From an uncultured Flavobacteriaceae bacterium (lineage in GTDB: Bacteria > Bacteroidota > Bacteroidia > Flavobacteriales > Flavobacteriaceae), in assembly GCA_947487895.1 (NCBI GenBank), contig CANKYF010000001.1, forward strand, positions 1 through 64,000: DNA of 64,000 nucleotides, in the 5' to 3' direction. Made by a program: the position numbers and the translations under genes. The notes under the pieces were generated by a model. That model did not search any database. It saw nothing but the letters and a program-made list of their open reading frames with translations, and was not told where the DNA came from. Positions 15,259 through 20,408 of the stretch are shown one piece after another (the first letter of the stretch is position 1; each line of letters opens with the position of its first letter).

Positions 15259-15609
15259 CTAGCTTCTGCGCTCTTTAATTCTAGCTTTCTTACCAGTAAG
15301 ACCTCTAAAGTAGAAAATACGAGCTCTACGTACTTTACCACGTTTGTTAACTTCAATTTTTTGTAATGCTGGTAAGTTTATTGGGAAAATACGCTCTACA
15401 CCAATAGAACCAGACATTTTTCTAATTGTAAAAGTTTCTGAAGTTCCAGATCCTCTACGTTGAATAACAACACCTTTAAAGAACTGTGTTCTAGTTTTGT
15501 TACCCTCTTTAATTTCGTAATAAACTGTAATAGTATCACCAGCTCCAAATTCTGGTAAATCTTTTCTTGTTACAAATTCGTCTTGTACAAATTTTACTAA
15601 AGATTCCAT
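15259..15609 (-). CDS. rplS: 50S ribosomal protein L19
   Basis: Large-subunit protein at the interface with the 30S subunit. The 116-residue sequence shows the L19 signature throughout: PEFGAGDTITVYYEIKEGNK, FKGVVIQRRGSGTSETFTIR, GVERIFPINLPALQKIEVNK and the basic tail RRARIFYFRGLTGKKARIKE. It is usually directly downstream of trmD; here a 2.1-kb unrelated gene lies between them. A good -7 element just upstream gives it its own transcript with a leader of about 75 bases that contains a small CCCGATTTCGGG hairpin. Confidence 0.98.
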   Translation of the reverse strand: MESLVKFVQDEFVTRKDLPEFGAGDTITVYYEIKEGNKTRTQFFKGVVIQRRGSGTSETFTIRKMSGSIGVERIFPINLPALQKIEVNKRGKVRRARIFYFRGLTGKKARIKERRS

Positions 15610-15683
15610 TTTATAAAATTTAATAATGGTTAGTTCGAAATAACATTCACGATTCTCGCCAGAGGTTAACCCGAAATCGGGTG

Positions 15684-15691
15684 CAAATATA
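15684..15691 (-). promoter_or_regulatory. -7 promoter element of rplS
   Basis: The minus strand reads TATATTTG, a full TAnnTTTG match, between the ATP-grasp gene and rplS. No exact TTG at -33, but TTTAG lies near that distance. Confidence 0.5.
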
Positions 15692-15727: not shown

Positions 15728-17863
15728 TTAATTTAACGTTGGAAAAACAGCTGTTCTATAAGCTACAGGATTATCATTTTTATCATAATTCATGGTTATT
15801 GGAGGCTTTTCAGCAAATTTAGCTTCTAAAGCAACGCACTTACCATTAATTACATAAGCTCCAAGTATAAAACTCCAATTATGCCAGTCTAAGCCATTTT
15901 TAGTTTTTATAGGGACTAATGATTTACCATGTTCTAGCTTTTTTTGTAAAATATATCCGTTATTAATTTGTTTGAGAAAAGTACCTTTAATATCAGAATC
16001 TTTTCCTCCCATAACAAATTCTTTAGAACCAAAACCTGTAAAAGATTTAATAATAAAGGAATCTATTTTATCCATTATGGTTTGTTTTTCAACATATTTG
16101 TCACTCCATATATAAGTTTCAGGAATATTATTTTTTATGATTTCTTTTTCTGATTTTAATAATTCTATATTATTTTCTTTGAGTTCTTTTTCAAACGAAT
16201 CAGTTTTCATAACAGCAAGCGATAATTTATTCCCCGCAAGCCATGAATTTAAAGAATTAACCATACAAACAGAGTTGTTTTTATATGCTTTAAAAAATGG
16301 ATTGTTGTTAACTTCAATTTTAGATTTGTTTTCATACTCAAAAAAGTCATTCCAAAGGACTCTTTTATATACTAAATCAATTTTCTTTTTGGTTTTTCTA
16401 ACGACCAAATTCCCATCAATAAAGTCTAATTCATCAGGTTCATAAATATCGGTGTCATAGTTTTCACTAATCAATAAATTTTTGAAATGTTCAAATTCAG
16501 TTCTAGTAGCCCATGTTTTCCAATTCTTTTCTACAATTGCAATTACTTTAAGTTGTTTGTTCTCATTTCTTTTCAAATTAAAATTTTGCCAACATTGGTT
16601 CAAGGCAGCTACTATTGAATTACATAAATCTTTTTCGCTTTCTAGAAGATTTAAATCTAGATCTATATTATTGCTAAGTCCAGCATCATTTAAAAATTCT
16701 TTTTGCTTTTTGATAAGACAATCTAAATGAAACATACCTCCCGGACTATCTGTGTTAATTTCGAATATGTTAATCTCATTATTTGAAAGGCAAATGTCTA
16801 CTCTTGTAATTTCTGGAAGTTCACGTGTGTTAAAATAATTTTGAGAAGCCATATCAAAACAAGAATTGCTATAGCCGCTAAGTTTTTTATAAGATTTGTT
16901 ATTGCCAATGAGGTCTAACGTTTTTTTAGATAAACTAATAGCTGCTTCAGATATTTTAATGATTTCTTTAAATACCTCTCTATTTAAAATTAAAGGTAGA
17001 GCAGCTGAGGGAATAGGCATTTCATCTCCTTTATGATACCTAACACAATTATTACTAAATAGATATTTATTAAGGCTAGAATTTATGGCATCAATTTTAG
17101 AATTATTTTTAAATATTGAATTTATTTTAGAATCTGGATATTGCGTTTTAACAATTTTACTACTAGTCTCAATTAAGTTTCCTTTAAAACCGAGACATTT
17201 TAATGATTTTTTTATTGAATTATAATATTCTTGTCTTATTACAAAATGTTCGTTAGAGCTTGAGTTGTCTGATACAAAAGCAAATACATCCTGATTAAAG
17301 TCAATTTTATATTTGGGTGTTACATCTGTAGTTATATTTTTGTATTTATAGTTTTTTTCTCGATTTTTTATATGCTCTAATTCGTTGTTAGAAACTTGAA
17401 TTACAGCTCCATATACTTTATCTGATATTTTATTAGTTTTTACAATATTAAGAGCTCCGTAATTTTTATTTTCAGAGCTATTCCAATCATTATCAACCAT
17501 ATTAAGCTTAATGCCAGAATTAATCCAAGAGAGTTTATAGCCAGAAACAATAGCAGGAATATATTCTATGAATTTACTTTCTCTTTCCTCAATAGTTCTA
17601 AATAAACTATCAGGGTTTAAGAGACTGCCATAAACAAAGATCATATTGGGCTTAGTGGTTTTTTTTATAGAAAAGGTTTTAACTTTTTTAAAATGAGGTA
17701 TTTTACAACGCCAAGAAAGAATATTTTTCTTTACTAGGTAATATGTTATTCCAATAGGTATAACAATTAAAAAATAGAGAGACTCTTTAAAGGCAAAAAT
17801 TATGGAAAGAATTAGTGCAATTACATTGAATGTCTTTTCTAGTAATTTTAAATCTATTTTCAT
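15728..17863 (-). CDS. Membrane-anchored gamma-glutamylcyclotransferase-like / ATP-grasp fusion
   Basis: 711 residues in three parts. Two hydrophobic segments (about 12-26 and 28-44) anchor the N-terminus. Residues about 74-205 look like a GGCT/AIG2 domain: MIFVYGSLLNPDSL with YGSLL at 78-82, and VYGAVIQVSNNELEHIKNRE with E169 where the family keeps its catalytic glutamate. The rest resembles the permuted ATP-grasp ligases of the glutathionylspermidine synthase kind: EINTDSPGGM (about 366-375), the late IIKSFTGFGSKEFVMGG stretch (about 601-617) and a C-terminal ALEAKFAEKPPITMNYD block. Ligase and cyclotransferase activities on one gamma-glutamyl-type product are inference; substrate unknown. 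The gene sits between trmD and rplS and has its own promoter. Confidence 0.6.
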   Translation of the reverse strand: MKIDLKLLEKTFNVIALILSIIFAFKESLYFLIVIPIGITYYLVKKNILSWRCKIPHFKKVKTFSIKKTTKPNMIFVYGSLLNPDSLFRTIEERESKFIEYIPAIVSGYKLSWINSGIKLNMVDNDWNSSENKNYGALNIVKTNKISDKVYGAVIQVSNNELEHIKNREKNYKYKNITTDVTPKYKIDFNQDVFAFVSDNSSSNEHFVIRQEYYNSIKKSLKCLGFKGNLIETSSKIVKTQYPDSKINSIFKNNSKIDAINSSLNKYLFSNNCVRYHKGDEMPIPSAALPLILNREVFKEIIKISEAAISLSKKTLDLIGNNKSYKKLSGYSNSCFDMASQNYFNTRELPEITRVDICLSNNEINIFEINTDSPGGMFHLDCLIKKQKEFLNDAGLSNNIDLDLNLLESEKDLCNSIVAALNQCWQNFNLKRNENKQLKVIAIVEKNWKTWATRTEFEHFKNLLISENYDTDIYEPDELDFIDGNLVVRKTKKKIDLVYKRVLWNDFFEYENKSKIEVNNNPFFKAYKNNSVCMVNSLNSWLAGNKLSLAVMKTDSFEKELKENNIELLKSEKEIIKNNIPETYIWSDKYVEKQTIMDKIDSFIIKSFTGFGSKEFVMGGKDSDIKGTFLKQINNGYILQKKLEHGKSLVPIKTKNGLDWHNWSFILGAYVINGKCVALEAKFAEKPPITMNYDKNDNPVAYRTAVFPTLN

Positions 17864-18019: not shown

Positions 18020-18047
18020 CAAAGATAAATTATTAGTCCTCTAACAA
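18020..18047 (-). promoter_or_regulatory. Promoter of the cyclotransferase/ATP-grasp gene, overlapping trmD 3' end
   Basis: On the minus strand TTTG (TTG at 18045-18047) is followed after 17 bases by TATCTTTG, a full match to the Bacteroidota promoter TTG-N17..20-TAnnTTTG. The -33 part lies in the last codons of trmD. The predicted leader is about 150 bases. Confidence 0.65.
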
Positions 18048-18710
18048 ATCTGGTCTACGCTCTTTTGTACGTTCATAGGCTTGGTCTTCACGCCATTTTT
18101 CAATCTCAGGAAAATTACCACTAAATAATACTTCGGGAACGTTCCAACCTTTATACTCTCTTGGTCTTGTATAAATAGGAGGTGCTAATAAATTATCTTG
18201 AAAGGAATCTGTTAGGGCAGAAGTTTCGTTACCTAATACGCCAGGAATTAATCTAATAACAGCATCACATAAAACTGCAGCACCAAGTTCGCCACCTGAG
18301 AGTACATAATCCCCAATAGATATTTCTTTGGTTATAAAATGATCTCTTACACGTTGGTCTACACCTTTATAATGTCCGCAAAGGATTATAATATTCTCTT
18401 TTAATGATAATTGATTAGCAATACCTTGATTTAGAGTTGCGCCATCAGGTGTCATATAGATAATTTCGTCATAATCTCTTTCTGCCTTTAAACCAGATAT
18501 ACATTTATCAATAGGTTCAATCATCATTACCATACCAGCACCACCACCAAATTGATAATCGTCTATACTTTTATAATTATCTGTAGTGTAGTCTCTTAAA
18601 TTATGAAAATGTACTTCAACTAAATTAGCATCTATGGCACGTTTTAAAATAGAAGCTTCAAACGGACTTTTAAGTAATTCTGGTAAAACAGTAATAATAT
18701 CTATGCGCAT
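18033..18710 (-). CDS. trmD: tRNA (guanine37-N1)-methyltransferase
   Basis: SPOUT-class enzyme that methylates G37 next to the anticodon, preventing frameshifts. The trefoil-knot motifs are clear: [37 protein letters not shown] and [20 protein letters not shown] followed by [17 protein letters not shown]. The C-terminal [18 protein letters not shown] is standard. 225 residues is normal. Divergent from the TAXI-like gene, with a 78-base intergenic region. Confidence 0.97.
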
Positions 18711-18788: not shown

Positions 18789-20408
18789 ATGTATATATTT
18801 AGAAAACTAATCTTACAAAAGATCAATATGTTAAAAAGTACTTTATCTTCTTTTATTAAGAGTCAATATTTTGGGTTTAGAGGTTTTATAGTTTTATTGG
18901 GAATAATCACTTCTGTGGCGGTTTACTATTATATTGTAGATTTTTATAATCCTGAAAGTAATATTTTCAATAAACTTAAATTTAAACCAGAACGCTTTGC
19001 GTTTTATTCTGGAGGAGAAGGAGGTTTTTATATTAGAATTGGAAAATCTCTTCAAGAAAATACGAAAAGGAAAAAGGACAAAATTATAATAGAAAATTAT
19101 GAAACGGCTGGAGGATCTGAAAATGCAATTAAAGTCCTTACAACTCCATCTTCTTTTGGTTTGGTGCAAGAAGAAACGATAAAAGAAAATGATTTTATTA
19201 GAGATAATTTAAATTACGTTGCTCCTTTATATATGGAAAGGATGCATATTTTATATAAGAAATCTTCTTATAAAAAAATTACAGGTTCTTCATTAAAGCA
19301 TCAACGGTTACATTTGTCTTCAAATTGTAGTAAAGATATATTAAAGTTTTTTTCAAAAGCAAAAATTAATACAGGCCCTGTAGGTAGTGGTACCAGAATC
19401 ATTTCAAGTTATATTATTAATGAAATAAATAGTCAATTAAATAATAATGATAATTCAATAGACCAAAAAATTAATAGTGAAAAAACCTTAAATGCAATAA
19501 ATAAACTCAAATCTGAAAACTCGAACGAATTAGATATTATGTTTATAATATCTGGTGCTCCAACCAAAGAAGTGTCTGATATACTTAAAAATAATGACGA
19601 TATTGATTTGATTAGTGTTGATCCTTCTTTTATAGCCCAAATTAATAACGAGTATAAGGTTAATTTAAGAATGTCTGATTTTAAAACTATTTATGAAGGA
19701 GCTAATGATGTAACAACTATTGGTTCATATGCTTTTTTGATAGCTTCTCCAGATGTAAAAGGTTCAAATATTAGCCTTTTAATGAAAACATTAAATGAGA
19801 ACAAAGGAAATATACAAAAAGAAATGGGAGTTAAGACCAGTAATCATTTTCAACTAGATGAATTTGATTTTTATAATTCTTACCAAAGTAAATATGAAAA
19901 GTCTAGGTTTTCTTTGTGGAGAGATTTCTTGCTTTTTATTGTGGCTGTTTCTAGTTCTTCAGCAATAATAATAGCTTTTTTGTTATGGTTGATTTCTACT
20001 ATAAAAACGAATTCGTACTTTGATGATATCACCAAAATATTTAGTGACAATAAAATTTTTAGTGTCAATTTTGAAGAAAATAAAAAACATCTTTTAACTC
20101 CGCTCCTTAAAATTAATCAGAGTAATTTCATTGAGAATCTATTAAAAAGTATTAATTCACTTAATGAATTAAAACTAAAAATATATAAAGATTACAATTC
20201 TGGTGGAATAACAGAATCGCACCATAAATACTTAATAGATAATTTAAATTTAGTTAAAGAAGAATTAAAAGAAACCTTAGGTCAAAGACTCTATCATCAT
20301 TTTAGTTTTAACAAACAAATTCTTAGGGAAGAGACATTGCATTTATATTATTCTAGTGGTTTTATTGATCATAATGATTACGTTGAAATAAAAAAAATAA
20401 TTATATAA
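18789..20408 (+). CDS. TAXI-type solute-binding protein with two membrane anchors
   Basis: The extracytoplasmic part (about 55-375) resembles TAXI binding subunits of TRAP transporters: FYSGGEGGFYIRIGKSLQE corresponds to the glycine-rich ligand loop, and ETAGGSENAIKVL and GPVGSGTRIISSYII to later conserved stretches. A membrane segment precedes it (GFIVLLGIITSVAVYYYIV, about 32-50) and a second follows (about 378-402), leaving a lysine- and asparagine-rich tail of about 135 residues that should be cytoplasmic. No TRAP permease genes are nearby, so a sensor or a partner of another membrane protein is more likely than a classical transporter; this is inference. An alternative start is the ATG 39 bases downstream. 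Confidence 0.65.
   Translation: MYIFRKLILQKINMLKSTLSSFIKSQYFGFRGFIVLLGIITSVAVYYYIVDFYNPESNIFNKLKFKPERFAFYSGGEGGFYIRIGKSLQENTKRKKDKIIIENYETAGGSENAIKVLTTPSSFGLVQEETIKENDFIRDNLNYVAPLYMERMHILYKKSSYKKITGSSLKHQRLHLSSNCSKDILKFFSKAKINTGPVGSGTRIISSYIINEINSQLNNNDNSIDQKINSEKTLNAINKLKSENSNELDIMFIISGAPTKEVSDILKNNDDIDLISVDPSFIAQINNEYKVNLRMSDFKTIYEGANDVTTIGSYAFLIASPDVKGSNISLLMKTLNENKGNIQKEMGVKTSNHFQLDEFDFYNSYQSKYEKSRFSLWRDFLLFIVAVSSSSAIIIAFLLWLISTIKTNSYFDDITKIFSDNKIFSVNFEENKKHLLTPLLKINQSNFIENLLKSINSLNELKLKIYKDYNSGGITESHHKYLIDNLNLVKEELKETLGQRLYHHFSFNKQILREETLHLYYSSGFIDHNDYVEIKKIII

Follow-up and report, generated by a model that had tools for sequence, protein, structure and literature searches.

A divergent gamma-glutamylcyclotransferase-like domain joined to a circularly permuted ATP-grasp ligase in a putative membrane protein encoded between trmD and rplS of an uncultured Flavobacteriaceae bacterium

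A single gene that joins a divergent gamma-glutamylcyclotransferase-like (GGCT) domain to a circularly permuted ATP-grasp ligase is the main finding of our analysis of a 64,000-nucleotide stretch of DNA from an uncultured Flavobacteriaceae bacterium (GenBank assembly GCA_947487895.1, contig CANKYF010000001.1, positions 1 to 64,000; here called the window). The fusion is a real combination of domains from two known families, and it was present in one genome among those sampled. Its product (P0001, 711 aa) carries, in this order, a predicted membrane hairpin, the GGCT domain and the ligase. The residue positions given in an earlier sequence-only reading of the window, namely Y78-G79-S80-L81-L82, E169, E368-I-N370 and K606...G612, were found to be correct when checked in the translation. 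The gene and its parts are located in the window as follows.

15728..17863, minus strand: GGCT/permuted ATP-grasp fusion gene, 711 aa (open reading frame list and translation)
17717..17851, minus strand: putative membrane hairpin, residues 5–49 (hydropathy and modelled helices)
17225..17641, minus strand: GGCT/GGACT domain, residues 75–213 (Pfam GGACT, broad profile and fold)
17618..17638, minus strand: FVYGSLL motif, residues 76–82 (F, V, Y, G and L invariant in 38 rows)
17357..17359, minus strand: E169, candidate catalytic glutamate (invariant column in 38 rows)
15839..17002, minus strand: circularly permuted ATP-grasp ligase, residues 288–675 (profile, Pfam CP_ATPgrasp_1 and fold)
16754..16804, minus strand: R354-x-D356-(11)-E368-x-N370 signature, residues 354–370 (alignment with E. 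coli GspSA)
16046..16048, minus strand: K606, invariant column of the ligase alignment

The domain assignment of the ligase half is secure. The fusion protein scored 30 bits against Pfam CP_ATPgrasp_1 (PF04174; cut-off 23.1, E 3.4e-7) and 26 bits, below the cut-off of 32, against CP_ATPgrasp_2 (PF14403). A profile made from 37 relatives, with the fusion protein itself excluded, gave 123.4 bits over residues 288–675, the best of 2000 shuffles reaching 5.6 bits on the same profile; the underlying alignment (A4) was drawn from 80 loci, 72 of which had an ORF of 430–520 aa, with 42 left after thinning at 72% identity and 37 used. An AlphaFold2 model made with the ligase relatives had a pLDDT of at least 80 in 30 of the 39 ten-residue blocks between residues 291 and 680, and of 46 in the glycine-loop block (611–620). 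When this half was submitted to Foldseek, the top match was homoglutathione synthetase (3kal; 1.1e-17, TM-score by target 0.68), followed by yeast glutathione synthetase (1.3e-16), 3n6x (8.2e-14), GspSA (2io8; 1.2e-13), Cp1B (9cjn; 7.8e-13) and YgiC (7uka; 1.3e-12), human glutathione synthetase also being matched. Profile score and folds of the glutathione synthetase/GspSA type both bear out the permuted ATP-grasp region that had been proposed from the sequence. The alignment with E. coli GspSA places R354, D356, E368 and N370 at the spacing of its R316-x-D318-(11)-E330-x-N332, and they may have the metal- and ATP-site roles of those GspSA residues. K606 (presumably nucleotide-binding), G612, G619 and Q640 correspond to invariant columns of the ligase alignment, and the fusion ligase keeps R354, D356, E368, N370, K606, G612 and Q640. 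The glycine loop is altered, KPNDEYGGKG of the relatives reading KSFTGFGSKE in the fusion protein, and further near-invariant columns have been lost (D666>I, R682>K, N690>T, G694>D and G696>N). Since just 28 of the 66 near-invariant columns (those in which 90% or more of the 37 relatives share a residue) are retained, the fusion ligase is, as judged from its sequence, a remote and not a close member of its family.

The 38 changed columns, along with the restriction of the fusion to a single genome of those sampled, would also be expected if it were an inactive or decaying orphan gained by transfer. However, the frame of 711 codons is intact, with no internal stops, the R/D/E/N signature, K606 and E169 are all retained, and the gene resembles five of its neighbours in codon usage (correlation 0.952, compared with 0.950–0.966 for the neighbours against a reference that includes them); we regard such an orphan as improbable. 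The gene is present in one copy in its genome, and its GC content (0.269) is slightly below that of the five neighbours (0.288–0.339).

The assignment of the GGCT domain is weaker than that of the ligase, but sound. When residues 58–224 were scanned alone, Pfam GGACT (PF06094) was matched at 25.4 bits (cut-off 22.8) over model positions 1–117 of 120, with an overlapping SbsC_C match that was below its own cut-off; on the full-length protein the GGACT score was 20 bits, under the cut-off. A broad profile of 24 Bacteroidota and 112 viral GGCTs gave 26.7 bits for residues 58–224, a score that none of 3000 shuffles reached (best shuffle 11.4), and 21.4 bits for the whole protein (best of 2000 shuffles 9.7). 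A narrow profile from the 24 Bacteroidota GGCTs gave no separation from chance (7.3 bits, with 3 of 2000 shuffles higher), phmmer with residues 58–224 found no GGCT among PDB sequences (the best match, at E 0.15, was a tail fibre), and searching the same genome with Pfam GGACT in six frames detected another gene only, and not the fusion gene. The genome has a standalone GGACT match in a 132-aa frame (G000:C1:326691-327062, plus strand; 64 bits).

Both E169 and the residues of F-V-Y-G-x-L were invariant in an alignment of 38 rows (A7), for which a GGCT ORF was present at 112 of 121 loci, 101 of these being of 110–200 aa and 60 remaining after thinning at 75%, from which 48 were taken on and 37 were used together with the fusion. 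We take the position of E169 to be that of the catalytic glutamate of GGCT enzymes, and FVYGSLL to be their substrate-loop motif. The identity of the GGCT half to the rows of A7 was 12–25%, and a long insert follows its YGSL strand. A model of this half built from A7 (mean pLDDT 72.4, pTM 0.67) was matched by Foldseek with TM-scores of about 0.4–0.6; of the top 16 chains (E 1.0e-5 to 2.6e-3), eight are titled gamma-glutamyl cyclotransferase, and the other eight (At5g39720, YkqA, LOC79017, PH0828, c4763 and others), by title uncharacterised or structural-genomics entries, are presumably GGCT-like. In a model made without GGCT rows, residues 87–213 were unfolded, with pLDDT below 50. As the 37 GGCT rows guided the model, the evidence from fold and the evidence from sequence are not independent. 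The GGCT/AIG2-like domain of the sequence-only reading is nevertheless supported by the score of the isolated region, the shuffles, the invariant E169 and the GGCT folds that head the matches of a model made with GGCT rows. A lack of fold matches, which that reading had named as its refutation, was observed for neither half. The distance of this half from the catalytic relatives in A7, its sub-threshold score in the full-length scan and the long insert behind the YGSL strand would all suit an arrangement in which the ligase half is the sole enzyme and the GGCT half is a regulatory or docking domain, binding gamma-glutamyl ligands without cleaving them; but E169 and FVYGSL, the presumed catalytic glutamate and substrate loop, are both kept, and we consider such an arrangement unlikely.

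The two membrane segments claimed for the N-terminus were recovered both by hydropathy, the windows of which span residues 5–49, and in the predicted model, where a short turn connects helices 5–25 and 27–51 and a run of basic residues comes after the second. As ATP is in the cytoplasm, this modelled arrangement suggests a hairpin topology with both enzyme halves on the cytoplasmic side.

Searches with the fusion protein returned the fusion alone in its own genus (1 of 7 genomes), family (1 of 299) and order (1 of 395), at the limits used and in genome samples that overlap, so that the survey for recurrence across the Flavobacteriaceae had a negative outcome in the 299 genomes sampled. At 1e-5, 13 of the 395 genomes of the phylum sample were matched, the fusion genome included, and the 12 other matches were open frames of 454–530 aa with no GGCT match in any. 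A scan of genome contigs yielded at least 429 confirmed ligase relatives, the best 80 of which had 19–29% identity, and no GGCT match was found in four ATP-grasp relatives with long ORFs (L089, L120, L127 and L137). Conversely, Pfam GGACT was matched in 96 of 395 Bacteroidota genomes; 30 of these loci were fetched and held no CP-ATP-grasp ORF, and the remaining matches were judged by open-frame length alone, one of them (22.7 bits) lying in a 6170-aa frame. Equally divergent fusions may escape this search, since it missed the fusion protein itself. No homologue of the fusion protein was found on plasmids at E 1e-3, in phages at E 1e-2, in viral contigs (queried with the fusion protein, A1, A2 and A3) or in genome contigs when the fusion protein alone was the query. 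Plasmid matches at E up to 10 came from nine records, eight of which carry a single Moraxella/Psychrobacter ATP-grasp-like protein and the ninth a weak match, and residues 58–224 gave six plasmid matches (best E about 1); the phage search, relaxed to weak matches, gave three from Vibrio phage, the one read being a gene noted as Peptidase_M15_3. A literature search, mostly outside the subscription papers, which may describe one, found no GGCT/ATP-grasp fusion. Three other identities were tried and rejected: a phage-defence family already described (PADLOC gave no match), membership of a PHROG (weak matches only) and a viral fold (no match to the full model with E of 0.001 or lower).

Our current working hypothesis, which we hold tentatively and at a little under an even chance, is that the fusion is a bifunctional enzyme anchored to the cytoplasmic side of the inner membrane, both halves of which would act on one gamma-glutamyl amide that is probably not glutathione. 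The domain assignments and signature residues are established by the analysis; the topology, both activities and the shared substrate are what we infer. The ATP-grasp half (about residues 270–711) would activate a carboxylate with ATP and join it to an amine, in chemistry that may resemble that of glutathione synthetase, GspSA and YgiC. In the GGCT half (about residues 73–220), E169 would cyclize a gamma-glutamyl group so that 5-oxoproline leaves and the amine is freed. One half would make or extend the gamma-glutamyl amide and the other would remove the cap, the two forming a make-and-break or a protect-and-deprotect pair. Glutathione is an unlikely substrate on the evidence of the gene content, since neither of two glutamate-cysteine ligase families, GCS2 (PF04107) and Glu_cys_ligase (PF04262), was found in a search of the genome for which the E. 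coli control was positive for both.

Known make-and-break enzymes of this fold, GspSA and trypanothione synthetase (TryS), pair the ligase with a CHAP-type amidase, the breaking partner in GspSA being a CHAP amidase domain. The fusion resembles E. coli GspSA and TryS in uniting a permuted ATP-grasp synthetase with a putative amide-breaking domain and in its fold matches (2io8, 2vpm), and GspSA in the equal spacing of R, D, E and N. It differs from these enzymes in its GGCT partner, its membrane hairpin and a genome without GCS2 or Glu_cys_ligase matches; indeed, Pfam scans of the full protein and of residues 58–224 listed no CHAP domain, and listed GGACT instead. TryS has the capacity both to make and to break its product (PMC3581523). 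The nearest relatives of the ligase among the matches listed are bacterial CP_ATPgrasp proteins (L002–L013 and L060–L139; 18–32% identity), which, unlike the fusion, have no GGCT domain (12 phylum ORFs, and ORFs of at least 90 aa at the best 80 of at least 429 loci). Among solved structures the best matches are eukaryotic-type glutathione and homoglutathione synthetases (3kal, 1m0w and 8fbz), which have 10–15% identity to the fusion ligase and, to our knowledge, neither a GGCT domain nor a membrane anchor. The standalone PF06094 proteins human GGCT, GGACT and ChaC2 share with the fusion the fold, FVYGxL and the aligned glutamate; unlike standalone GGCT, GGACT and AIG2 proteins, the GGCT half of the fusion is very divergent and is joined to a ligase. 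BtrJ and BtrG of butirosin offer an analogy of working, in that a protecting gamma-glutamyl group is put on by an ATP-dependent ligase and taken off by an enzyme of the GGCT fold; unlike the fusion, they are separate proteins and use a carrier protein.

A precedent for an ATP-grasp beside a GGCT is found in the LUZ24-like phage UFV-P2, where ORF28 (ATP-grasp) and ORF29 (AIG2/GGCT) belong to one gene run; unlike the fusion, they are separate genes, of 291 and 131 aa, accompanied by an amidoligase and a glutamine amidotransferase (PMC3890496). These adjoining phage genes would also suit a sequential pathway, in which a gamma-glutamyl precursor is trimmed by the GGCT half and the ligase attaches something else to the amine so released, never making a gamma-glutamyl bond. 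Eight loci of ligase relatives, which look biosynthetic, point in the same direction: by ORF names that come from sequence reading, a second ATP-grasp-like ORF is present in six of the eight and a class-I amidotransferase-like ORF in six. However, no GGCT ORF was present, among ORFs of at least 90 aa in the DNA read, around the best 80 of at least 429 relatives, so that the wider family does not favour a GGCT partner in either role, and we allow the sequential pathway a real but minor chance. If the favoured reading, an enzyme that makes and unmakes one gamma-glutamyl amide, is true, a second and unrelated means of opening its product would have been joined to this ligase fold, and the fusion would indicate a gamma-glutamyl metabolite, as yet undescribed, in a bacterium with neither of the glutamate-cysteine ligase families searched. 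Protect/deprotect or futile-cycle chemistry would then also be available in compact form, within one protein.

The fusion gene is located between trmD and rplS, where the following features were mapped.

18033..18710, minus strand: trmD
15259..15609, minus strand: rplS
15641..15668, minus strand: L19-Flavobacteria ribosomal-protein leader of rplS (RF03130; 43 bits, gathering threshold 31.5)
15684..15691, minus strand: TATATTTG, -7-like element of rplS, its place kept in four congeners with trmD–rplS adjacency
18020..18048, minus strand: TTTG-N17-TATCTTTG, promoter-like match at chance level, overlapping the end of trmD

The gene starts 169 bp past the trmD stop, and downstream of its end lie the rplS promoter region and then the intact RF03130 leader, the upstream region of which is similar in four congeners. 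The distance from trmD to rplS is 161–502 bp in four of the six congeners, with no ORF of at least 90 aa between the two genes in G213 and G302 and one of 106 or 110 aa in G301 and G303; in G299 and G300, rplS was outside the stretch read and another gene follows trmD. On the other flank of trmD, before the next shared gene, G301 and G303 have no ORF of at least 90 aa, G302 has one of 427 aa and G213 one of 826 aa. Within the genus, lineage-specific genes have entered the flanks of trmD, a possible insertion-prone site. Given the differing ORFs beside trmD among the congeners, an insertion fits this variability, and the fusion gene was likely inserted between trmD and rplS, breaking their adjacency as had been claimed, with the promoter region and the leader of rplS preserved. 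The ‘perfect promoter’ from which the addition of the gene had also been argued did not withstand scrutiny: one match to TTTG-N17-TATCTTTG was found against 0.85 expected, and 57 of 100 shuffles had at least one, so that the match is at chance frequency and the argument was rejected.

The other flank of trmD is occupied by a gene divergent from the fusion gene.

18789..20408, plus strand: TAXI-type (NMT1_3) binding protein, 539 aa, with two hydrophobic segments (Pfam and hydropathy)

The TAXI/NMT1_3 domain of this protein (63 bits, cut-off 27) lies between hydrophobic segments 27–53 and 376–411, and a C-terminal part extends beyond the second. The gene was found in its own genome alone (1 of 7 genomes of the genus, 1 of 238 of the phylum); the protein had no match on plasmids and weak, short matches only in phages. 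The product of GGCTs, 5-oxoproline, is pyroglutamate. Among TAXI proteins, VcGluP has L-glutamate as a ligand and shows weaker binding of glutamine and pyroglutamate (PMC11574862). The protein encoded at 18789–20408 could be a glutamate/pyroglutamate sensor, and it may instead serve in transport, since two DctM-type TRAP permeases are encoded elsewhere in the genome. From position and rarity we hypothesize a link between this neighbour and the fusion. In its fullest form, the fusion would make and unmake a non-glutathione gamma-glutamyl amide, releasing 5-oxoproline, and the neighbour would be its outward-facing TAXI sensor of glutamate/pyroglutamate, anchored by two segments; this joint reading is a long shot, drawn from the two genes flanking trmD and from neither being found in the other genomes sampled.

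ATP-grasp-like proteins were also observed in other settings. An ATP-grasp-like protein of about 430 aa, encoded at L028:4764-6053 on a Moraxella osloensis plasmid and matched on 34 plasmid records, has no Pfam match above cut-off, although some annotated relatives are longer, and around the ATP site it has motifs similar to those of the fusion. Its gene lies in islands of metal-resistance genes: in nine of ten regions chosen from the 34 records it adjoins genes annotated for copper, mercury or other heavy metals, and in the tenth, from Acidovorax, it is beside RND efflux genes. The protein may make a metal-binding or protective peptide. At the Bacteroidota ligase loci (L003 and L007–L012 among the eight), an esterase-like ORF, named from sequence reading, is next to the ligase in two of the eight.
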